Below are positions 6,922 through 28,663 of a stretch of 59,539 bases of DNA, piece after piece. The notes beneath the pieces were generated by a model. It did not search any database, was not told where the DNA came from, and was given only the letters and a program-made list of their open reading frames with translations. Positions within the stretch are counted from its first letter, which is position 1; every line of letters begins with the position of its first letter. Both the position numbers and the translations under genes were made by a program. Location: positions 1 to 59,539 of the IMG/VR virus record IMGVR_UViG_3300021092_000047; one strand, given 5' to 3'. Source of the stretch: a virus.

Positions 6922-6990
6922 GCAGAACCCGCACCCGAAGGTGGCTGCATTACACGCGTATGTTTAACGTCTTCACCAGGACGGTGCCGA
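6922..6990 (-). ncRNA. Repeated RNA element, copy 0 (degenerate 3' half)
   Basis: On the - strand it reads stop codon, CGTC/GACG hairpin, TTAAACATACGCGTGTAATG, CAGCC, then a C(UUCG)G-capped hairpin (CACC-TTCG-GGTG) and CGGGTTC. It then diverges from the other copies: the loop and terminator parts are missing. The UUCG tetraloop appears only when read on the - strand, which orients the family. Confidence 0.55.
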
Positions 6991-7293
6991 TCAAATGATT
7001 TCCCATTTCTTATTTGAAAATGGGTGGGCAACGAGCGTGTGCTCGTTGCTTGATTTAGGGGTAGCGAGCAGAAAAATTCCATAGTTTTCCACGTTCCAGT
7101 TTGCTGCTTTAATAGCCGCGGTGACTGCTGCTCTTTTACGGAGTCCGGCGTCACTGAAATTTACGTTTCCGTAACCCGGCTCGTTACTTGGCAACACACT
7201 TTGACAAACAACTACAACTCCAAGCACACCACTAACTGTAGCATACAATGCGACAGCAGCAGAATGCAGGATTCGACAGATGAACAACATCAT
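6991..7293 (-). CDS. 100-aa secreted or membrane-anchored hypothetical protein
   Basis: The start is the first of two ATGs (7293) after an AAGAAGAAAAG stretch. A hydrophobic N-terminus, about residues 5-29 (LHSAAVALYATVSGVLGVVV), is a signal peptide or anchor. The remainder is polar (NVNFSDAGLRKRAAVTAAIKAA). It lies behind terminator hairpin T1 and ahead of RNA element copy 0, the same module layout as the small genes at 19-22.6 kb, so it looks like an outlying member of that belt. Function unknown. Confidence 0.55.
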   Translation of the reverse strand: MMLFICRILHSAAVALYATVSGVLGVVVVCQSVLPSNEPGYGNVNFSDAGLRKRAAVTAAIKAANWNVENYGIFLLATPKSSNEHTLVAHPFSNKKWEII

Positions 7294-7328
7294 GACTTTT
7301 CTTCTTGTGGCCGTAGTATAAATGAAAA

Positions 7329-7363
7329 GAGCCCGCCAAACCATTTACGAATCTGACGGGCTC
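7329..7363 (-). terminator. Terminator-like hairpin T1 of the repeated family
   Basis: GAGCCCG/CGGGCTC stem on the - strand followed by TTTTCATTTAT. The loop contains GTAAATG, complementary (one G-U) to the downstream CATTTAT, whereas other copies have GTGAATG and CATTCAC. This compensatory change supports loop-tail pairing. Confidence 0.6.
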
Positions 7364-7368
7364 TACGC

Positions 7369-7425
7369 GTGTCCTCTGCATTTACCAGGGCTTGGAACCC
7401 GCACTCGCGTCGCTCGTTAAACCTG
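7369..7425 (-). ncRNA. Repeated RNA element, copy 1
   Basis: The - strand reads GGGTTCCAAGCCCTGG then TAAATGCAGAGGACAC just before T1, matching the 3' half of the other copies. The hairpin is CGGG/CCTG with a TTCCAAGC loop. The 5' half (GTGTAATGCAGCC) is replaced by unrelated sequence following the stop of the 87-aa gene. Confidence 0.55.
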
Positions 7426-18228: not shown

Positions 18229-18290
18229 CTTTTACCTTTCAATAGCTAAAGAAAACCGGAAGGATATCAGAACAACTAAGAGAAAGAAAA

Positions 18291-18416
18291 GGTCACATTA
18301 CATGAACTTGCGAATTGATTCATAGTAACGAACGTCCTGGAACGAGTCAACCAAATAGATTGACTTGTTCCAGGACGTTCGTTCAAGAATCGCATCACAA
18401 GTCACGTAATGTGACC
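18291..18416 (-). repeat. 126-base nested inverted repeat (long hairpin)
   Basis: Inner arms of 23 bases (18328-18350 and 18360-18382) pair with one G-T, leaving a nine-base loop. Outer arms (18291-18310 and 18398-18416) pair over about 18 positions with one substitution and one bulge, and a GATTC/GAATC pairing lies between. The left end is preceded on the + strand by A-rich sequence, giving CCTTTTCTTTCTCTT after the hairpin on the - strand, so it could terminate transcription from csrA. It may instead be a regulatory RNA or a mobile-element remnant. Confidence 0.75.
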
Positions 18417-18437: not shown

Positions 18438-18629
18438 TTAAGCGTCTTTCTTTGACGCTTGCAAAATTATTTCTTTCCGGAGCACGGAAACCCCCGGAGG
18501 GGCTTCGAAGGCAAGCTGAATTTGCTTGCCTTTAATCTTCAGTACTTTTACAAGTACTGAAGATTTTAAAGTTTGAGGCAGGCCGGAGATTACGACCTCC
18601 TCGCCTGCTTTGCGACTGAGGACTAGCAT
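18438..18629 (-). CDS. csrA: CsrA-like translational regulator
   Basis: 63 aa, begins MLVLSRKAGEEVVISG and contains VKVLKIKGKQIQLAFEAPPG then VSVLRKEI, the CsrA/RsmA fold. CsrA dimers bind GGA motifs in mRNA leaders and block or aid translation. Key RNA-contact positions are kept: the L-x-R of strand 1 and the Arg of VSVxRKEI (the usual His is Leu). A few extra residues (LPQTLKSS) lengthen the strand 1-2 region. The ATG overlaps the upstream 96-aa gene by seven bases. A long hairpin follows. Targets may include the ACAAGGA-containing leaders at 19-22.7 kb (inference). Confidence 0.88.
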   Translation of the reverse strand: MLVLSRKAGEEVVISGLPQTLKSSVLVKVLKIKGKQIQLAFEAPPGVSVLRKEIILQASKKDA

Positions 18630-19141: not shown

Positions 19142-19175
19142 GAGCCCTTGGACCATTCACGAATCCGACGGGCTC
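19142..19175 (-). terminator. Terminator-like hairpin T2 of the repeated family
   Basis: GAGCCC/GGGCTC outer stem with a GGA/TCC inner stem on the - strand, loop containing GTGAATG, then TTTT and two CATTCAC heptamers before AGGAG. The middle of the stem has mismatches, so it is weaker than T3, T4 or T6. Confidence 0.6.
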
Positions 19176-19180
19176 ATTTT

Positions 19181-19480
19181 GTGTCCTCTGCATTTATCAG
19201 GGCTTGGAACCTGCACCTTGCGGTGGCTGCATTACACGCCGAAGTTTCATCGGCACCCCATTGCGCAGAGTGGGTTTCTCCAGGTAGGTAACCTGTATAC
19301 ACGCAGAGTCTAACACTGCGGTATGGGCGATTCATTGCAGAAGATCTGCAATGCTACGGTTCCTCCCCGTACTTTACACCAACGCTACAAACCCATACGC
19401 TAATCCACCGCAGCCGGGTTCCGCTGCGGGCTCGAGGAGACGTACTCCCATCTTCTCGCATTCTCTGACCGCGTCTAAGC
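19181..19480 (-). ncRNA. Repeated RNA element copy 2 with extended structured leader
   Basis: The 3' part reads GTGTAATGCAGCC, a GCAA-capped hairpin (CACC/GGTG), CAGG-TTCCAAGC-CCTG, TAAATGCAGAGGACAC. Upstream are further hairpins: GCCGA/TCGGC with loop TGAAACT, ACCCA/TGGGT (varying to ACCTA/TAGGT in copy 4), CAGGT/ACCTG, CGCAG/CTGCG and a nine-bp CATTGCAGA/TCTGCAATG. No convincing gene lies in these 300 bases; a 60-codon frame at 19354-19536 lacks a ribosome site. Confidence 0.65.
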
Positions 19481-19484
19481 CATG

Positions 19485-19730
19485 TCAGCCGGTTGCGACG
19501 ACCGGTGTAAAAAGCCACGGCCTTGTCGCACGCCACTGTTGCAGTTGCTCCTGCCGTTTTAACTCTTTCTCGTGTTTTACGAGAAATATAGGCAAAAGTT
19601 CGAGCAACATAACACCAGCCACGGTGTCACCAGCGGCCACAGCACGTTCCAGTGCTGCCTTACGCTTTACAAGCCTGTAATAAGCCTGTGTCTTTAACGC
19701 TTGTGGGGTCATTGATCTTATTGTTGACAT
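19485..19730 (-). CDS. 81-aa hypothetical protein
   Basis: Start at the ATG at 19730 (MSTIRSMTPQALKTQAYYRL), seven bases after GGGAG. Basic, helical, with a moderately hydrophobic middle (VAGVMLLELLPIFLVKHEKE) that could be a membrane-peripheral helix. It is preceded by hairpin T3 and RNA element copy 3. An upstream extension through the hairpin is open but is rejected as non-coding. Function unknown. Confidence 0.55.
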   Translation of the reverse strand: MSTIRSMTPQALKTQAYYRLVKRKAALERAVAAGDTVAGVMLLELLPIFLVKHEKELKRQEQLQQWRATRPWLFTPVVATG

Positions 19731-19765
19731 GTATGATCTCCCTGTGAATGATGTGTGAATGAAAA

Positions 19766-19800
19766 GAGCCCACCGGATCATTCACGAATCCGGTGGGCTC
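19766..19800 (-). terminator. Terminator-like hairpin T3 of the repeated family
   Basis: Perfect 13-bp stem (GAGCCCACCGGAT and its complement) on the - strand followed by TTTT. The loop carries GTGAATG, complementary to two CATTCAC heptamers that lie between the T run and GGGAG of the next gene. Confidence 0.78.
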
Positions 19801-19805
19801 AGCAC

Positions 19806-19895
19806 GTGTCCTCTGCATTTATCAGGGCTTGGAACCTGCACCTTGCGGTGGCTGCATTACACGCGTATGTTTAATGTCCTCGCCAGGACGCGCGC
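19806..19895 (-). ncRNA. Repeated RNA element, copy 3
   Basis: On the - strand: GTCC/GGAC hairpin, ATTAAACATACGCGTGTAAT, GCAGCC, GCAA-capped CACC/GGTG hairpin, CAGG-TTCCAAGC-CCTG hairpin and GAGGACAC, then hairpin T3. Begins just after the stop of the 144-aa gene. Confidence 0.65.
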
Positions 19896-19900
19896 ACATC

Positions 19901-20335
19901 TCACCGGCAAAACCGGTTGATGTAGATCTCTTTTGTCTGGCGATCCTTCACGCAAATCGTACCGACCTTAAGAGCCTCCTCCAGGAGGCTCTTACCGGTT
20001 TCCCGCTTGGCGTTTCGCAACGCCTCCAGTACGGGAAACGGTATCAACACGATGTCGACCCTGTCGTCATTCTCCAGGTCCATCAGCAGGTTCCAAACCT
20101 GCTCGGACAGCGAGAACTTGGGGACGACCGCGACGATATCGTCGCGGTCCCACATGCCCCAGGGGCGGGTCTCCTCTTCCCGCTCCAGGGCACCGGCTGC
20201 CACCCTGTCGGGCTGGCACGCTTCGAGGACACTGCCGTCCTCGAAGTTAAACGGGTGGGGGGAGCTAAAATTCGCTACCCTGAGTCCGTTGCTGAGGGTA
20301 ACAACGGGCGCTGTTGAAATAACTGCTGTGGACAT
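19901..20335 (-). CDS. 144-aa hypothetical protein
   Basis: Start at the ATG at 20335 (MSTAVISTAPVVTLSNGLRV), eight bases after AAGGA. The segment NGLRVANFSSPHPFNFEDGS then VLEACQPDR looks like a conserved domain of large-phage hypothetical proteins, followed by an acidic region, a helix (SEQVWNLLMDLENDD) and a basic C-terminus. No membrane span. The leader has hairpin T4, and its ribosome site reads ACAAGGA, a CsrA-type motif. Function unknown. Confidence 0.65.
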   Translation of the reverse strand: MSTAVISTAPVVTLSNGLRVANFSSPHPFNFEDGSVLEACQPDRVAAGALEREEETRPWGMWDRDDIVAVVPKFSLSEQVWNLLMDLENDDRVDIVLIPFPVLEALRNAKRETGKSLLEEALKVGTICVKDRQTKEIYINRFCR

Positions 20336-20370
20336 ATCTCTTTTCCTTGTGAATGAGGTATGAATGTAAA

Positions 20371-20403
20371 GAGCCCTCGGACCATTCACGAATCCGAGGG
20401 CTC
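20371..20403 (-). terminator. Terminator-like hairpin T4 of the repeated family
   Basis: Perfect 11-bp stem GAGCCCTCGGA with its complement on the - strand, loop with GTGAATG, then TTTACATTCAT and a second heptamer CATTCAC joined to AAGGA. Confidence 0.75.
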
Positions 20404-20408
20404 CACAT

Positions 20409-20605
20409 GTGTCCTCTGCATTTATCAGGGCTTGGAACCTGCTGTTTTTTTCAGAACAGGCTGCATTACACGCCGAAGTTTCATCGGCACCCTATTTCCA
20501 CAGTAGGTTTCTGCGTGATTCACAGTGAAGCACAACCCCGCTCTTTTCGTAAGAACGGTTACGCTAGTCCTTACACGCGTGTTTAACGTCCCGCCGGACG
20601 GTGCC
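20409..20605 (-). ncRNA. Repeated RNA element copy 4 with structured leader
   Basis: The 3' half is as in copy 2 but with the apical hairpin changed to CTGTT/AACAG. Upstream are GCCGA/TCGGC (loop TGAAACT), ACCTA/TAGGT, and an eight-bp hairpin CCGTTCTT/AAGAGCGG whose one U-G pair is only allowed on the - strand. A second partial start of the element (GACGTTAAACACGCGTGTAA) lies at 20573-20592, right after the 26-aa gene. Confidence 0.65.
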
Positions 20606-20607
20606 GA

Positions 20608-20688
20608 TCATCGGCCATAAATTGCGTAAATTACTAGATACAGATAAGCTGCCACCACCATGGCCTCAGCCAACCGCTTGCCATTCAT
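20608..20688 (-). CDS. 26-aa single-span membrane peptide
   Basis: MNGKRLAEAMVVAAYLYLVI then YAIYGR: basic start and one hydrophobic helix. AAGGAG is seven bases upstream of the ATG, within CACAAGGAG, and hairpin T5 precedes it. Its stop begins the conserved TGATCGGCACCGTCC that also follows the 100-aa gene at 6991, so the RNA element starts at the stop codon. Too short for family assignment. Confidence 0.5.
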   Translation of the reverse strand: MNGKRLAEAMVVAAYLYLVIYAIYGR

Positions 20689-20708
20689 GGTCTTTCTCCT
20701 TGTGAATG

Positions 20709-20742
20709 AAAAAAAAAGCCCTTGGACCATTCACGAATCCAA
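20709..20742 (-). terminator. Terminator-like hairpin T5 of the repeated family
   Basis: TTGGA/TCCAA stem with the usual TTCGTGAATGG loop, then GGGC and nine T residues on the - strand, followed by CATTCAC and AAGGAG. The outer GAGCCC arm is missing, so the stem is only five bp. Confidence 0.6.
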
Positions 20743-20743
20743 A

Positions 20744-21040
20744 TCATAGCCCGTACCACTGACCGGCCATGCCGATCATTATGCGGTGTGAAGCGTCTTT
20801 GTCTTCGGCAAACTTCACAATACCGCAATCCAGGATTTCCCAATTCCGCGTCCCCAAATACACCCCGGCTAGGGTCTTTTGGAACGCTCCGGAGTCGGAC
20901 TGCCACGCGACGTTCTGTAAGTTGGGTGGCGCCGCCGGAGGCGGGAACAAAAACCCAAGGCAGAAGCACGCAACCACCGCGGCTACAACCAAAACCGCCA
21001 CCAATTTAATAATTTCTCGTACGAAAATTACAGCTTCCAT
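20744..21040 (-). CDS. 98-aa membrane-anchored hypothetical protein
   Basis: Start at the ATG at 21040 (MEAVIFVREIIKLVAVLVVA), eight bases after CGGAG. A strong N-terminal transmembrane helix (residues 11-33) is followed by a Pro-rich linker (PPPAAPPN) and a soluble domain of about 60 residues. Preceded by hairpin T6 and followed by T5. Likely N-in anchored; function unknown. Confidence 0.6.
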   Translation of the reverse strand: MEAVIFVREIIKLVAVLVVAAVVACFCLGFLFPPPAAPPNLQNVAWQSDSGAFQKTLAGVYLGTRNWEILDCGIVKFAEDKDASHRIMIGMAGQWYGL

Positions 21041-21074
21041 GATCTTTTCTCCGTGTGAATGATGTGAACGAAAA

Positions 21075-21107
21075 GAGCCCTTGGACCATTTATGAATCCA
21101 AGGGCTC
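21075..21107 (-). terminator. Terminator-like hairpin T6 of the repeated family
   Basis: Perfect 11-bp stem GAGCCCTTGGA with its complement on the - strand, then TTTTCGTTCAC. The loop is ATAAATG, so complementarity to the downstream CATTCAC is only partial. Confidence 0.72.
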
Positions 21108-21110
21108 AAC

Positions 21111-21374
21111 ATGTCTCAAGCTCAGGCTATGCAATTTCCGGCCTTTCCGCCCCGTCGCTACCCTCCCTCTGACCTGCCGGTCTGAGAGAAGGCAATCGGT
21201 GGCCCGGGCAGGATTCCGACTTGGGGAGTCAACCCAAGTGGATTATCCTACTGTACCGTCCGTACCACCCATGGGCAGAGTATGAACTCAGCATGGTGGC
21301 AACCCGAATCTCAGTGGTGACTAAACCACCTGTCGGCGGGGCGGGAAGACCTGAAACTGCCACAACTAGGAAAG
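21111..21374 (-). other. Gene-free structured segment, cloverleaf-like but not a tRNA
   Basis: 264 bases between hairpins T7 and T6 without a credible ORF. It contains a seven-bp ACTTGGG/CCCAAGT hairpin, an AGGAT/ATCCT pairing around it and a GGTGG/CCACC pairing around both, plus GTGGT/ACCAC. The layout resembles a tRNA, but arm lengths, the T-loop and position 37 do not fit. Confidence 0.4.
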
Positions 21375-21407
21375 GAGCCCTTGGACCATTTATGAATCCA
21401 AGGGCTC
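21375..21407 (-). terminator. Terminator-like hairpin T7 of the repeated family
   Basis: Perfect 11-bp stem GAGCCCTTGGA with its complement, eight bases after the stop of the 210-aa gene; followed by CTTTCC rather than a clean U run. The loop is ATAAATG and no CATTCAC follows, so this copy acts, if at all, only as a 3'-end hairpin. Confidence 0.6.
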
Positions 21408-21414
21408 TAGTGCG

Positions 21415-22047
21415 TTAGGTGGACACTGCTACCTTCACGGTCCAGTACCCACCGCCCATGCCGGGCGCATGGGTCGAGTCCAGAATGCTGGCCCCTTGCG
21501 GAGACAGCACGACTGGGGATTCCCATCCATTTACCTCCCCAGGAGCGACCGTCACGGTCACTCCAGTGGAAGTGGCAGCCGACTTTGGGCTATCCCAAAA
21601 TCCGTCTGCCCGCTGGCGGCGGGTCGGCGAGCCGAAGCATACCACCACGACTTCGACGACACCCCCGGACGCCTCGGCCTCGGCGGCAAACGCCTCCAGG
21701 GCGTCCAACCGCTGAGCTGTCGAGGCAAACTCGGCGCGCACGATCTCGCGCGCAACGGCCAACGGGAGGCCGATCGCGGCGATGAGCTCGCCCCATGAGG
21801 CGAACGAATCGCCCCAAGTTCCATGCATGGGGCTGACGAGCTCGACTGCTCGCACTCCTGGTGCGAGCAGTAGGGTGTAAGTGGTATTGCTCCACTTACC
21901 ACTTTTCTGGTAGTCCGCGGCCGCGATGGCCACGAACCCGGGGATATTCTTGCCTACAAACTTGCAGGCCTCCCCGGCTTTCGTCAGATAAAGCCGGGGG
22001 TACCGGCCTGCCGGGAGCAAACCGTCGTTCCACTTCAGTGTATTCAT
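21415..22047 (-). CDS. 210-aa hypothetical protein
   Basis: MNTLKWNDGLLPAGRYPRLY..., start supported by AGGAAC upstream of the ATG at 22047. GC-rich codon usage, no signal peptide; central helix LDALEAFAAEAEASGGVVEV and Gly-rich C-terminus (HAPGMGGGYWTVKVAV). No catalytic motif seen. It has RNA element copy 5 as its leader but no GAGCCC hairpin in front, differing from its neighbours. Function unknown. Confidence 0.6.
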   Translation of the reverse strand: MNTLKWNDGLLPAGRYPRLYLTKAGEACKFVGKNIPGFVAIAAADYQKSGKWSNTTYTLLLAPGVRAVELVSPMHGTWGDSFASWGELIAAIGLPLAVAREIVRAEFASTAQRLDALEAFAAEAEASGGVVEVVVVCFGSPTRRQRADGFWDSPKSAATSTGVTVTVAPGEVNGWESPVVLSPQGASILDSTHAPGMGGGYWTVKVAVST

Positions 22048-22089
22048 TTCTTCCGTTCCTTTATGTGGCCGTGGCAGATTGCCGTGGCC

Positions 22090-22190
22090 TGTGGACTTGG
22101 GACCACCTACCCACGCTGGGTAGGCGCATTACGGCAGCCGAACGGCTGCATTACACGCGTATGTTTAACGTCCCGCCGGACGTACGCTCG
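22090..22190 (-). ncRNA. Repeated RNA element, copy 5 (divergent)
   Basis: On the - strand: CGTCC/GGACG hairpin, TTAAACATACGCGTGTAATG, GCAGCC-GTTC-GGCTGC, CCTACCC/GGGTAGG, then GTGG-TCCCAAGT-CCAC. The last hairpin replaces CAGG/CCTG by GTGG/CCAC while keeping the loop TCCCAAGT, a compensatory change supporting the fold. Confidence 0.6.
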
Positions 22191-22193
22191 AAC

Positions 22194-22649
22194 CTACCGG
22201 TTTAGGCCGTAGGCGTCTACGGTCGCTTTGAGCGCCGCTAACTCCTCAGGCGAAGCTTTTCTCCAATCCTTCCAGTGCTCGGGGAATCGCCGCGACAGCG
22301 CCGTCGCAGCCGGATGCCGACCATACTTCGCCTCGAACAGACGAAGTTTTACCAGCAATAAGCTGGCCACTTCGGGATCCTGCGTCGCGGCTGCCAACCG
22401 CAACAGCCGCCGGATATCGCCCCACGCCGCTTGACTCCATCCCTTCCAGGGCATGCTGCCCTGGTCGTAACATTCAGCCAGGTCGCGCAACACCTGGGGA
22501 TGAGCTTGACAGTAATTGACGAGCACGTACGTGCTGGCATCACCGGGTACTTTAATCCCGTCGCCGTCGCCGTCGGCTGCATTAGCCGCGAGGGAGGACG
22601 GCACGACACCACTCAGAGCAACCAACAACGCTACATAAACAGTCTTAAT
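22194..22649 (-). CDS. 151-aa secreted hypothetical protein, apparent ATT start
   Basis: A clear Sec signal peptide, KTVYVALLVALSGVV then PSSLAANA, is followed by a small helical domain (ECYDQGSMPWKGWSQAAWGD, LLRLAAATQDPEVASLLLVK). The leader AAGGAGAAAGATC is the same as in sister genes, but the codon at the expected start is ATT instead of ATG; a TTG or GTG-less restart a few codons on is the alternative. GC-rich. Probably exported; activity unknown. Confidence 0.6.
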   Translation of the reverse strand: MKTVYVALLVALSGVVPSSLAANAADGDGDGIKVPGDASTYVLVNYCQAHPQVLRDLAECYDQGSMPWKGWSQAAWGDIRRLLRLAAATQDPEVASLLLVKLRLFEAKYGRHPAATALSRRFPEHWKDWRKASPEELAALKATVDAYGLNR

Positions 22650-22684
22650 GATCTTTCTCCTTGTGAATGAGGTATGAATGTAAA

Positions 22685-22718
22685 GAGCCCGTTGGACCAT
22701 TCACGAATCCAAGGGCTC
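22685..22718 (-). terminator. Terminator-like hairpin T8 of the repeated family
   Basis: GAGCCC/GGGCTC plus TTGGA/TCCAA stem with one mismatch on the - strand, GTGAATG loop, TTTACATTCAT, then CATTCAC and AAGGAG. Confidence 0.68.
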
Positions 22719-22723
22719 CACAT

Positions 22724-22781
22724 GTGTCCTCTGCATTTATCAGGGCTTGGAACCTGCCTCACTGTGAGGGCTGCATTACAC
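22724..22781 (-). ncRNA. Repeated RNA element, copy 6
   Basis: GTGTAATGCAGCC, apical hairpin CTCA/TGAG with a three-base loop, CAGG-TTCCAAGC-CCTG, TAAATGCAGAGGACAC. Its 5' side continues without a break into the large structured block at 22782-23577, so it may be that RNA's 3' domain. Confidence 0.6.
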
Positions 22782-23577
22782 GCCGCAACTCTATAAAGAC
22801 CCTCACTGATCTTTACGCTTGCGGCAATGTGGTCCTGTAACTGGACCGCTTAGAGAGTGAGCTCTGCATTTTTCTACCTGTATGCTCAGGCTCTTATCGT
22901 AGGAATACGAGCAGTTTCCGCTTGCTAAGCGATCCGGAACTTCCCCGAATTAATTACAGGCCCCTACGCGGTAGCTTTGCGTATCATTTTACGTTTGACA
23001 AAACGCCAGACTCACACTGGGTGTCTTAATCGTTTTTGATCAAAACATCTGCTAACTTTATTTCAGTGGAGTTAGTAACCACGTCGCTTATCATTTAACG
23101 AGGAAGTTCTCCTCGGGACGTTCACTGTTTTTCAGCTTCACCGCAACTCGTAAAAGAATGAGTCGCAGCGCTGGTCAAGACTTCAGTGACTTAGAAGTAG
23201 TGCCAGACAGTTTTTCGTTTTCTGGGGGATTAGTCCAACCCCGAAACTGTGCCATGTGTACTCATACACACCCCACAGTAATGCTTACATCAGATCTCTT
23301 ATAGAAGCAAGAGATCGAGCTAAAGACGACTCAAACGCTAGCCGCCTGCGAATAGTCTAGTGACAAAAAGAACGCGGTTACACGCGGTCACTAGATTACT
23401 CGACTTTAGCCGGTGAAAGTGTTTTTGCTTACACACTTCGTCCGACCAGAGGAGACTTAAGTCTTTCCTCATCTTATTCTGACACGTTTTGTATCAGAAT
23501 TTAGATTTGGAATAGGTAGGTTTTGCCTCAATCAATAATGACACGATTTTGATTAAAATTTAGATTTATTTGCAGGC
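22782..23577 (-). ncRNA. Large structured noncoding RNA (about 0.8 kb)
   Basis: No ORF of note on either strand, but at least fifteen consecutive inverted repeats: GCCGCAA/TTGCGGC, TAAAGA/TCTTTA, GGTCC/GGACC, TCGTA/TACGA, CTAACT/AGTTAG, CGAGGA/TCCTCG, ACTTC/GAAGT, ACAGTTT/AAACTGT, TGTGTA/TACACA, GATCTCTT/AAGAGATC, TCTAGTGAC/GTCACTAGA enclosing CGCG/CGCG, AAGTGT/ACACTT, GAGGA/TCCTC, TTCTGA/TCAGAA and AATCA/TGATT. Strand is inferred from the surrounding operon, A-rich loops and a hairpin terminator downstream on the - strand; a GGAA tetraloop and one U-G pair would argue for the + strand. Size and phage context recall GOLLD/ROOL RNAs, but I cannot match their consensus by eye. Confidence 0.7.
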
Positions 23578-23880
23578 TTAGAAAGTGTACTCAGTGACGC
23601 GCCCGTTATTAGCAGCGCGAATGCGTACCTTTTCGGCATTCAACATTTTTTTGAGTCGTTGTTTCTTTTCAACACCCATGGCGATTAGAGAGCTCTTGAT
23701 GCCGTTGATAGCGTTGACTCGCCTAGAGCTGCTTCTATTGCAGCGGCCACAACCTGACTTAGTTTTCTCTGCCAGTTTCAAACCGGAAAGAAATGGAAAC
23801 TCTTTAAGAAACGTAGGATTGCCTGCCATTGCGACCAATACTGACTCTTCGATAATCATTAATTTGGTTGGTTCAGCCAT
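23578..23880 (-). CDS. 100-aa basic hypothetical protein
   Basis: MAEPTKLMIIEESVLVAMAG... with AAGGAG upstream of the ATG. The middle (SGCGRCNRSSSRRVNAINGI) carries a C-x2-C pair, and the C-terminal half is Lys/Arg-rich (EKKQRLKKMLNAEKVRIRAA), suggesting nucleic-acid binding. Its stop directly abuts the large structured RNA block; an RNA-binding partner role is only a guess. Confidence 0.62.
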   Translation of the reverse strand: MAEPTKLMIIEESVLVAMAGNPTFLKEFPFLSGLKLAEKTKSGCGRCNRSSSRRVNAINGIKSSLIAMGVEKKQRLKKMLNAEKVRIRAANNGRVTEYTF

Positions 23881-24347: not shown

Positions 24348-24662
24348 CTACTCTCCATCCCAAATAACAGTTAGACCAGCCCGCGTATGCAGTTGGATGC
24401 GTTCTTTCTGTTTTCGTTTTTGTTGAATGTAATCAATCAACGGCTGCAAACTTTCAGGTTGAGTCTTGGCGCGGCAAGTTAATTCTTCCTGCCATTGATT
24501 ATACAGCGGTTCTCTTGCCAATCTTAGAGTACTTTTATCTTGTTCGGATATTGCAATTAGTTCTTCAGCTTTTTCTCGATACGGCTCAGCCCAGTTGACG
24601 ACTTCCCAGAACAATAGATCATTCCAAAGCTGCATTGTAACATTGTGGTCTAGAATAATCAT
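24348..24662 (-). CDS. 104-aa hypothetical protein
   Basis: MIILDHNVTMQLWNDLLFWE... mostly helical, with charged coiled-coil-like segments (YREKAEELIAISEQDKSTL, YIQQKRKQKERIQLHTRAGL). The ATG overlaps the stop of the glycosyltransferase gene (CGATGA) and its end abuts the 151-aa gene. Position and size are typical of a tail accessory or assembly factor. No family recognised. Confidence 0.62.
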   Translation of the reverse strand: MIILDHNVTMQLWNDLLFWEVVNWAEPYREKAEELIAISEQDKSTLRLAREPLYNQWQEELTCRAKTQPESLQPLIDYIQQKRKQKERIQLHTRAGLTVIWDGE

Positions 24663-26662
24663 CGACTAGGATCCCAAGGAAACTTCTCAGAATAACCGCG
24701 TCGCCCGCCTTGCTCTCGACTAGGACAGGCGATAAAACTTTTTCCCCTGTTCCACTGTCGAATCATAAAACCGGCTTGATGCAGTTGTTCGCCGATTGTT
24801 ATGTCTCCGCCATTATGCCCTAATCGACGGTCTGGAATATCGGCTAATCGCATTGCTTCCGTTGAAAGTGCCCAACACCAGCCAACGGCAAAATCGATGA
24901 TACTACCATTTGTTGTTTCCTGTTGACCTCCGCGCGTACGGAAAAACTTACCTCGATGCCACGGCGATTCGCGGAACCAAATATCAGGCCTTCCACCGCC
25001 TTTGCTATAAATTGAAATGTCGTGGTACATAATGTTACCAAACATGCGGTAACCGTAAGGATGACCGGCAATGATTGTCTGAGCCAAGTCAGATAGCCAA
25101 TGCGGTTGCACTACCCAAGTATCGTCATCAAGCCAAATGATGTAGTTAGTCTCAATCGGCTTATTTGGGTCCCAAAACATATCCCGCATGACGGGATATT
25201 TGTGCTTGTTAGCAACATTTACGTACAGCTTGGAAATCGGCAATGTTTTAAGAAAATCTAACGTAGCTGGTGCGGCTTCATTAGTAGCTACACGCAAGTC
25301 CATTCGCTCTGGAGGTACTGTCGCTAACAAACTTGAAAGACATTTTTTGGCAATGTCAGTATGTGGACCATAGCACAGAACACACACAGTAAACTTACCG
25401 CCAATTATGGCATGATCTAGAAGTGGAAGTTTTTTCTGAATCGTGCCGACACCGGCCCGCGTAAGCTCACGCGGGTGTACTTGATGATGCGGCTTTTGCT
25501 CGCGACTTTCAGTTGAAGGTTCACGTACAACTTTAACGTCTGGTATTGCTTCAACGGCACAATCTCGCACTCGAATTAGTTCTACCTTTGGAATTTGAAT
25601 TGCAGGCGCAGGATCTGCCTTCAATTCCGGAATTGAAGGCATTGGAAATTCTTTTGGGGTGCCAATAGGTGGAAGTATTTTCTTGTCGTAGTAATCCATG
25701 ACAGCCTCAACAACATGATCAGATAAAATGAGATCCTGGCATTTAGCTACAGCGTGCGTAACTGCGGGACGCACTGGGTTACGGCACAACGTGTAGCTCT
25801 TGCGAGTTAAGTCTGAAGGATCTAGCGGTATTGTACGCTTCTTCCAGCAACCTTGTTTGTCACAGCAATCTAGTAGTCCAATGGTATGCAGAAACTTGTG
25901 CTCGACATTTACTGAATTTGCTTGCACACCAAAAGCTTGAAAGTTATTTACATAGGCTTCAAACCAAGGTTCTTCTCGTCCCCCTGCGTAAACCACGCAA
26001 GGTTTCTCAAACGCAGCAGCAATGTGCATAGCTCCGGTAACCCCGCAGATGACACCGTCCGCATGCAGAATGATATTCCATAAGTCTCTTACGTTCTCTG
26101 TTTGTCCTAGCAAGTTTGTACAATTATGCAGAGGTGGATGGACATGATTTGAGTGTACTGCACCAACTTGTACGCAATGAATACCCTGACTTAGAAGTTT
26201 ATCTACGACTTCTTGAGCTCGATGCGCGTGCCAGTGCTTAGTGGTCAGATCTAGTTTACCGCCTGACAGGATTACCCAGTACCGCCCTTGTATTCGACGT
26301 ATGCGTTCTTCTGCGGTTAGATGCAGATCGGGCTTAGGCTCAGTTACCGGTACTTTGATTCCGGTTTTGCGCCAGAAATCGTAGTGATACCAAGCAAGGA
26401 TGTGCGTCATTACACGCTGCTGTCCGTAATGCGCATATCCGTTCCACTTAATCGCATCACCCCAGCTAACTTCTACGCGCGTTGCTTGTGTCTTGCTGTC
26501 AAATCGAGCAATATATGGGTTGTTCCACCACACATTGGTGAAGTGCGTATCAACCTGTATCTCGTACTCGCCTGGATAGGCTTTGTGGATGTCTCGAATT
26601 AGTGCCGTTAGTAGTATCGTGTCTCCAAGCGCCCACTTGTGGCGTATCGTCAGACGCTTCAC
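24659..26662 (-). CDS. Bifunctional glycosyltransferase, GT9-like plus GT2-like
   Basis: 667 aa from a GTG at 26662, six bases after GGAG. The N-terminal 270 residues follow the heptosyltransferase (GT9) pattern: HKWALGDTILLTALIRDI, WVILSGGKLDLTTKHWHAHR, and ADGVICGVTGAMHIAAAFEK then PCVVYAGG. A Pro-rich linker with Cys residues (about 320-405) leads to a GT2/GT-A domain: FTVCVLCYGPHTDI, then the metal-binding WLDDDTW near residue 523 and an acceptor-type GGDITIGEQL. Two transferase folds in one chain suggest addition of a disaccharide. The neighbouring collagen-like fibre gene is a likely acceptor (inference), since collagen-like proteins are often glycosylated. Confidence 0.82.
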   Translation of the reverse strand: MKRLTIRHKWALGDTILLTALIRDIHKAYPGEYEIQVDTHFTNVWWNNPYIARFDSKTQATRVEVSWGDAIKWNGYAHYGQQRVMTHILAWYHYDFWRKTGIKVPVTEPKPDLHLTAEERIRRIQGRYWVILSGGKLDLTTKHWHAHRAQEVVDKLLSQGIHCVQVGAVHSNHVHPPLHNCTNLLGQTENVRDLWNIILHADGVICGVTGAMHIAAAFEKPCVVYAGGREEPWFEAYVNNFQAFGVQANSVNVEHKFLHTIGLLDCCDKQGCWKKRTIPLDPSDLTRKSYTLCRNPVRPAVTHAVAKCQDLILSDHVVEAVMDYYDKKILPPIGTPKEFPMPSIPELKADPAPAIQIPKVELIRVRDCAVEAIPDVKVVREPSTESREQKPHHQVHPRELTRAGVGTIQKKLPLLDHAIIGGKFTVCVLCYGPHTDIAKKCLSSLLATVPPERMDLRVATNEAAPATLDFLKTLPISKLYVNVANKHKYPVMRDMFWDPNKPIETNYIIWLDDDTWVVQPHWLSDLAQTIIAGHPYGYRMFGNIMYHDISIYSKGGGRPDIWFRESPWHRGKFFRTRGGQQETTNGSIIDFAVGWCWALSTEAMRLADIPDRRLGHNGGDITIGEQLHQAGFMIRQWNRGKSFIACPSREQGGRRGYSEKFPWDPSR

Positions 26663-27037: not shown

Positions 27038-28663
27038 CTAAAGCGTTATTGATTCCAAGACAAAGCGAAATAACTTTCCGCTACTTTCTTTGTAAACCAA
27101 CGTTTGTTGATTTACCGAATAGTATAGTGTGTCGTTAGCCGCTTCGTCATCTAGTAGCTGTGTAATTTTTAGTCCACCCGCGGCATCTGTCGCCGATCGA
27201 CCAGGAGGGCCTTGCGGTCCAACAAGTGTTGAAATAAAGCTGGAGTCAAGAAACGGCGTAATGTCAAAGTTTTTAGACGGTAAGTAAGGATTAAAATTGT
27301 CGCCAAGGCGCATCTCGGGAACTGTTGTTGGGTTAGGTGGTTGCGGATTTCCAGTAGCGCCGGATGACCCTGTAGCCCCTGGAGGCCCTGTATCCCCTGG
27401 AGGCCCTGGAGGCCCTGGAGGCCCTGGAGGCCCGGAAGGACATTCTGTACAACCTCCGGGTGCGCCCTGCGGTCCCGGATAGCCTTGCGGACCTTCAGAA
27501 CCTTGCGGACCTGACGGGCCTTGCGGACCCTGCGGACCTGCAGAACCTGGCAGGCCTTGCGGACCTGCAGAACCTGGCAGGCCTTGCGGGCCAGGAAAGC
27601 CGTAAGGTCCAAACGGCCCAGGAGGACCTTGCGGACCCTGCGGACCTGCAGAACCTTGCGGACCTGCAGAACCTTGCGGACCCTGCGGGCCGCCCAAACC
27701 TTGGGGGCCGCTCAAACCTTGGGGGCCGTCTACCCCCTGATGTCCTGCGGGACCCGCGGGGCCTGGAGGGCCGTTTGGGCCTGGGGGGCCGTCTGGGCCT
27801 TGAGGACCGTCTGGGCCTTGAGGACCGTCTGGGCCTTGAGGGCCTTCTGAGCCGTCTTGGCCTTCTGGGCCTGGAGGGCCGTCTGGGCCTGGAGGGCCGT
27901 CTGGGCCTGGGGGGCCGTCTGGGCCTGGGGGGCCGTCTGGGCCTGGGGGTCCGTCTGGGCCTGGAGGGCCGTCTGGGCCTGGGGGTCCGTCTGGGCCTGG
28001 GGGTCCGTCTGGGCCTGGGGGGCCGTCTGGGCCTTCTGGGCCTGGAGGGCCGTCTGGGCCTTCTGGGCCTTCTGGGCCGTCTGGGCCTTGGGGGCCTTCT
28101 GGGCCTTGGGGGCCTTCTGGGCCTTGGGCGCCGATATCTCCGCCAGGCGGGCCTGGCGGACCTTGCGGACCTTGAAGTCCGACTTGAGGACATGGAAATA
28201 CGATGTCTAAATCAAATTCATAAGTACAATCATCCTTTTTGATAACATTCAAAAAAGCTGAAGGCGGACCACAAGGGCCAATTGAATTGCCGTTACTGCC
28301 GCCAATACTGCTAGAGGTAATACTAGGACACGGAAAATCAATCTCTAAATTAAAGTCGTAGTCACAGCATTCGCCTTTAATTACAGAGAAAAAAGCGCGC
28401 TCTTGTCCGACTGGAACAATACGTACCTCTGCCTCAGCGCCAGAAGCCTCACCGTCAAAGGTTATGAGCGGGCATAAAGGCTCCGGCTCAAGCAGTGGTA
28501 TTAAATACGGCGGACAATCCCATATCGTTTCCGGCGAGGTAAGCACCTGCGGATTAGTAATCCAATCACCTTCCGGTATTGGAAAAATACAAGGAACGTC
28601 ACACTTGATGATGTCAAATACAGGTTCTTGTGATCCTTGCGGGCAAGGCGTTGTTGGAGCCAT
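27038..28663 (-). CDS. Collagen-like tail fibre or tip protein
   Basis: 541 aa from the ATG at 28663 after GGAGGAG. Cys-rich N-terminal domain (about 1-160) with paired repeats ([25 protein letters not shown]), then a Gly-X-Y collagen domain at about 163-431 rich in [12 protein letters not shown] and GPEGPQ, a short [18 protein letters not shown] segment, and a C-terminal domain ([20 protein letters not shown]). Collagen triple helices form trimeric fibres in phage tails. The protein lies beside a two-domain glycosyltransferase. Host-surface adhesion is probable but inferred. Confidence 0.85.
27370..28175 (-). repeat. Minisatellite encoding Gly-X-Y repeats
   Basis: Tandem GC-rich units of 9 and 18 bases (for example GGCCGTCTGGGCCTGGGG) within the collagen-like gene, most regular at 27770-28130. 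Length polymorphism by slippage is expected. All reading frames stay open here, giving several spurious long ORFs. Confidence 0.9.

Follow-up and report, generated by a model that had tools for sequence, protein, structure and literature searches.

Here we describe a noncoding RNA of about 700 nucleotides, lying outside Rfam, that is predicted on the minus strand of a phage genome and would be freed at its 3' end by a ribozyme transcribed together with it, a reading to which we assign a probability of roughly 0.8 on comparative sequence grounds. The window, by which we mean the whole stretch analysed, is an IMG/VR virus record of 59.5 kb (59,539 nucleotides) with contractile-tail genes on the minus strand. 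The RNA occupies the gap between a conserved 100-aa gene and the next open reading frame, and the same gap holds a homologous RNA in related phages, where covariation upholds its structure. The main elements of the locus are as follows.

23578-23880, minus strand: conserved 100-aa gene without a known family, directly upstream of the RNA, with nucleotide conservation in L011-L013
23535-23549, minus strand: AAATCGTGTCATTAT, a further copy of the 5' motif, 59 bases upstream of the first and seen only in the window
23474-23490, minus strand: AAAACGTGTCAGAATAA, conserved 5' motif immediately preceding the first helix (exact-pattern match, one per genome in five of five records)
22778-23471, minus strand: large structured noncoding RNA of 694 nt, bounded by the first conserved helix and the expected ribozyme cut (homologues, alignment A3, consensus z-score)
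22723-22782, minus strand: predicted type-P1 twister self-cleaving ribozyme (RF03160 covariance-model match)
22685-22718, minus strand: terminator-like hairpin GAGCCC...GGGCTC-TTT past the ribozyme, one of seven copies in the window

RESULTS

Coding content and folding of the intergenic block

A sequence-only reading had described the block as free of credible reading frames and packed with at least 15 successive inverted repeats, and had taken it for an ornate noncoding RNA. The first two points were borne out: there is no ORF of at least 60 aa on either strand at 22701-23577, each frame of the RNA in the window sequence contains 10-17 stop codons, and a repeat search at 22680-23600 listed 32 inverted repeats, those named earlier included. 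Folding energies were lower than those of shuffled controls on both strands and more so on the minus strand, with z-scores of -9.7 (22700-23580, 20 shuffles) and -5.6 (22778-23471, 60 shuffles) for the minus strand and -4.9 and -4.3 in the same two tests for the plus strand, the size of the excess varying with the chosen limits and the number of shuffles. The hairpins had also been called far denser than chance; the folding excess is real, but hairpin density is not decisive alone, because the 18.2-19.0 kb region of the same phage exceeds its own shuffles by even more. It is the comparative evidence that decides in favour of the predicted structured RNA. One long-range pair proposed earlier, I3 (GGACCGCTTAG/CTAAGCGATCC), was dropped, as neither L011 nor L012 preserves it on inspection of alignment A3.

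Several neighbouring features were recorded alongside. The gene after the terminator-like hairpin probably begins on the minus strand with an ATT codon at 22649 (MKTVYVALLVALSG..., signal-peptide-like), 7 bases past AAGGAG, which is preferred over the ATG at 22700 inside the hairpin. The minus strand also carries a tail fibre gene with a collagen-like GXY repeat and 9-nt periodicity at 27369-28140, and an imperfect intergenic hairpin of about 120 nt at 18282-18404, which begins with GGTCACATTACGTGAC and ends with CATGTAATGTGACC.

Homologues in uncultured giant phages

Searches seeded with the gene at 24659-26662, which encodes a glycosyltransferase family 9 domain, yielded 14 related loci, four of which (L011, L012, L013, and L015) hold the RNA block in the equivalent position, following the 100-aa gene. 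These relatives are IMG/VR phage contigs of 117-205 kb, and the RNA-bearing phages are a group of uncultured giant phages. L012 and L015 are the same over the block, leaving three distinct relative sequences, or four with the window; two of these four are 96% identical to each other, so some pairs rest on a single evolutionary event. The RNA shares 72-74% identity with the window sequence, as against 56-62% for the two neighbouring genes.

The RNA was absent from 9 of 10 further phage contigs or loci searched that have the same neighbours, and is therefore not essential to the wider clade. It was also absent from other clade records searched with model R1; a weak 17-bit match about 1.4 kb downstream in L012 and L013, within a coding stretch, was set aside. 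Past the four contigs, DNA-pattern searches of IMG/VR returned chance matches alone (L020, L021, L035, L036, and L037). No relatives were found with the 100-aa gene as query or in phage records, and none in bacterial genomes, either via the glycosyltransferase alignment or via the RNA pattern.

Consensus structure, covariation, and the transcribed strand

The consensus structure, obtained with RNAalifold on alignment A3, comprises 221 pairs, and 95.2% of the cells form standard pairs. Since A3 also served to derive the structure, this share is biased upward, and the number of double changes is the more reliable measure. Both sides have changed in 36 pairs, compared with a mean of 15 in shuffles, none of 500 reaching 36; when partners were slid by 1-3 columns, only 0-6 pairs with double changes were left. 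Nearly all of the 23 helix segments checked arm by arm pair in every lineage, including full pairing of the H11 arms GACUUG/CAAGUC in L011. Representative helices, in 5' to 3' order, are listed below.

23449-23470, minus strand: helix H1, GAGG-AGAC/GUCU-CCUC here and GCAGACGA/UCGUUUGC in relatives, compensatory (pairing by eye, positions from A3)
23349-23402, minus strand: helix H3, UCUAGUGAC/GUCACUAGA here and UCGCAAAGAC/GUCUUUGCGA in relatives, with five double-changed pairs; this is the inverted repeat noted earlier at 23358-23395
23052-23075, minus strand: helix H10, with three pair sets, CUAACU/AGUUAG, CUGACG/CGUCAG, and CUAGCU/GGCUAG (arm-by-arm check)
22831-22847, minus strand: hairpin with an invariant GUUACA loop and a covarying stem, GGUCC/GGACC, CGGUCA/UGACCG, GGGUCC/GGAUUC, and GGGUCC/GGACUC (arm-by-arm check)
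22782-22825, minus strand: closing 3' hairpin H16, GCCGCAA/UUGCGGC around UAAAGA/UCUUUA, ending at the ribozyme (A3)

Against shuffled alignments, the consensus energy gave z-scores of -14.9 for the minus strand and -6.4 for the plus strand, which assigns the RNA to the minus strand. The earlier reading had left the strand unsettled, with leanings both ways, of which the minus leaning held and the plus leaning fell; its proposal of an ornate noncoding RNA found support in the covariation among aligned relatives, the check it had itself suggested. Judged from these homologues, the block is a conserved structured noncoding RNA of 694 nt on the minus strand, at about 23471-22778. Several hundred nucleotides long, noncoding, phage-borne, and built from many covarying helices, it has the attributes of the large ornate phage RNAs. 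The hairpin at 22847-22831 has an invariant GUUAC loop, with which an invariant GUAAC of the RNA could form a tertiary contact.

Dense inverted repeats within an intergenic gap might equally be expected of a DNA-level element, such as a replication origin or packaging site, with the hairpins acting as DNA. Such an element is highly improbable here, since one strand shows far stronger structural conservation than the other, many pairs are maintained via G-U, which DNA hairpins do not favour, and the ribozyme at the end requires RNA.

At the other end, the 5' motif AAAACGTGTCANAATAA adjoins the first helix and is found at no other place in the five records. With a single occurrence per genome, it was rejected as a promoter used throughout the phage genome. 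It could serve as a dedicated promoter or mark where the RNA starts.

A twister ribozyme at the 3' boundary

No Rfam model gave a match at gathering scores. The RF03160 (twister-P1) model matches 22782-22723 with 58.4 bits (E = 1.3e-10 in the whole window, E = 2.5e-12 in the block search) over model positions 1-68 of 68, conserved core and pairs included. Four good twister copies in the window score 57.7-62.3 bits, under the Rfam gathering score of 67.2, which is a curator's cut-off and not a structural feature; we therefore label them twister-P1 by core, below cut-off. Twister ribozymes cleave between a conserved U and A, and we take the cut here to fall between 22778 (U) and 22777 (A), four bases past the last helix. 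The block had been seen to run into copy 6 of a repeated element and a terminator-like hairpin on the minus strand; the hairpin is there at 22718-22685 and the element does adjoin the RNA, its nature as a twister having been missed. L011 carries a twister in the same register (55.8 bits, E = 5e-13), the sole twister-P1 in that 175-kb record, and none was found in the L012, L013, and L015 records. A terminator-like hairpin follows the ribozyme in all lineages. These observations support the predicted twister as setting the 3' boundary of the RNA.

A large RNA upstream of a same-strand gene, followed by a terminator-like hairpin, is also what one would expect of a cis-acting leader, i.e. a long 5' untranslated region regulating the downstream gene in the manner of a riboswitch or attenuator. 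We consider this unlikely, because a self-cleaving ribozyme stands between the RNA and the gene, 0.7 kb far exceeds the usual length of leaders, and the first downstream genes, by reading, differ among the window, L011, and L012. As the RNA and its 3' boundary persist from lineage to lineage but the downstream genes change, a role in trans is likelier than control of one gene.

A candidate HDV-like ribozyme at the same junction in relatives

Past the RNA in L012, L013, and L015 the sequence starts with GGCACC and follows an HDV-like order, with P1 GGCACC/GGUGCU (first pair G-U), P2 AUGAAUCA/UGAUUCAU, and P3 GCC/GGC. The nested pseudoknot order P1-P2-P3 with G1 at the cut is present at L012:14089 and L013:14088. 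With P2 of at least 7 pairs, this topology arose in 0 of 20,000 shuffles at any of 45 start positions, a figure to be weighed against the frequency of a looser HDV-like topology in phage DNA, about one per 8 kb and strand. The G1 column coincides with the expected twister cut column (GCGGC-GUGU|AA in the window, GCGGU-AUAC|GG in L012, and GCGGU-AUAU|GG in L013). The J4/2 stretch contains C residues (AGAUAACCAACCGA), and CU/AG could pair as P1.1, in a register that is not fixed.

No Rfam model picks up the element, which was recognised post hoc, by topology. Theta ribozymes, too, were found by descriptor and not by Rfam (PMC10879173). We think it probable that the element in L012, L013, and L015 is an HDV-like ribozyme, and treat it as a candidate. 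The known theta (minimal HDV-like) phage ribozymes resemble it in folding without P4 and in cutting at the 3' end of another RNA, but mostly end tRNAs, whereas the candidate of L012 and L013, identified by topology only, ends a large noncoding RNA (PMC10879173).

Repeated twister modules and other structured stretches

Further good twister copies lie at 20472-20408, 19863-19805, and 19238-19180, with a split copy at 7.4/6.9 kb, and it is the twister that constitutes the repeated element noted earlier. It belongs to a module repeated along the minus strand at 19142-22782 and 7329-7423, which consists of twister-P1, the hairpin GAGCCC-TTCGTGAATG-GGGCTC-TTTT, a ribosome-binding stretch CATTCACAAGGAG, and a small ORF; seven hairpins and five twisters with an intact CCAAGCCC core were counted. 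At 6925-7404 (minus) the 3' and 5' halves of a divided twister flank a single gene cassette, and a 10-nt direct repeat, GTGCGGGTTC, stands at both junctions (7404-7395 and 6934-6925), as if the cassette had entered at or within the ribozyme. Several same-class self-cleaving ribozymes in one polycistronic transcript are likewise seen in the hammerhead arrays of phage-like operons, which involve another ribozyme class and no large structured RNA (PMC3088659).

Also on the minus strand, a 260-nt multibranched stretch between two GAGCCC hairpins (21110-21370, z = -5.0), with no Rfam match and no relative among the fetched loci, is a possible second structured RNA. The stretches 20468-20615 and 19236-19484 are noncoding and twister-ended, and share a 3' part (GCCGATGAAACTTCGGC-GTGT) preceded in both by a covarying hairpin (CCCA/TGGG versus CCTA/TAGG); they are possibly small ribozyme-ended RNAs.

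Comparison with known RNA families

The earlier reading had suggested GOLLD, ROOL, or a new class. GOLLD (RF02032) resembles the present RNA in being large (many members exceed 800 nt), ornate, phage-borne, noncoding, and often near tRNA genes, and ROOL (RF03087) in being large and ornate, of similar length, and found in phages and prophages (PMC12286853). The covariance models separate them from our RNA. RF02032, judged on its conserved 3' domain, gave no match at the block in five records and 5-10 bits at most elsewhere; RF03087 gave no match up to E = 10 in the five records, a weaker search in that the control genomes were also silent; and a sensitive cmscan of the block, the search proposed at the outset, recovered neither, which leaves the new class. 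Nor is a ribozyme at the 3' end of GOLLD described in PMC12286853.

The size and phage setting would also suit a very divergent GOLLD or ROOL RNA, and each of the four RNA-bearing relatives has a tRNA-Met gene 2.7-5 kb downstream of the RNA (L011:19134, L012:17527, L013:16827, and L015:17527), in keeping with the frequent proximity of GOLLD and ROOL to tRNAs (PMC12286853). The remaining loci scanned have no such tRNA-Met. With both models negative and no tRNA in the entire 59.5 kb of the window, we regard such a relationship as very unlikely.

A further alternative is suggested by a CsrA-family regulator encoded in the window at 18438-18629 (minus; PF02599, 56 bits): with 8 GGA triplets, the RNA might act as a sponge for the phage-encoded protein, like CsrB/CsrC. 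The GGA counts drop to 7, 4, and 3 in the relatives. CsrA is present in several relatives, with two copies in some; relatives lacking the RNA do encode it, and in RNA-bearing ones it is missing or doubtful. On these grounds the sponge was rejected as exceedingly improbable.

No Rfam family matches the RNA, and no earlier account of it was met in the literature searched, which left out most subscription papers and preprints. It appears to represent a new family of large, ornate RNAs carried by phages, whose 3' ribozyme can be exchanged. What sets twister-P1 (RF03160) apart here is its use as the terminus of a long noncoding RNA, together with its repetition along an operon.

DISCUSSION

To our knowledge, few phage noncoding RNAs of such size and order have been described, the functions of GOLLD and ROOL are open, and the roles of phage twisters are mostly unknown. 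In the scenario we consider most likely, minus-strand transcription would yield the RNA either together with the adjacent phage genes or shortly ahead of them, and it would fold into about 20 helices. The downstream ribozyme, twister-P1 in the window and L011 and the HDV-like candidate in L012, L013, and L015, would then cut four bases past the last helix and so sever the RNA from what lies downstream, namely ribozyme, terminator-like hairpin, and next gene. The product would have a defined 3' end with a cyclic phosphate and would presumably act in trans. The related phages seem to use a different self-cleaving RNA at the same base, as though the exact end matters to the phage.

As to its role, our best guess, with about an even chance, is that the RNA is made during infection as a structural scaffold or RNA assembly, in line with current thinking on GOLLD and ROOL. 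More tentatively, and with rather less confidence than doubt, it might represent a third kind of phage RNA particle, in which a 0.7-kb RNA, assembled during infection by itself or with protein, owes its uniform 3' end to the ribozyme of its lineage as an exchangeable maturation part. The ribozyme-fixed 3' end offers a practical handle: mature RNA bearing the native end could be produced in vitro. If two ribozyme classes truly swap at the same base, phage twisters would gain a clear job, the 3' maturation of a noncoding RNA.
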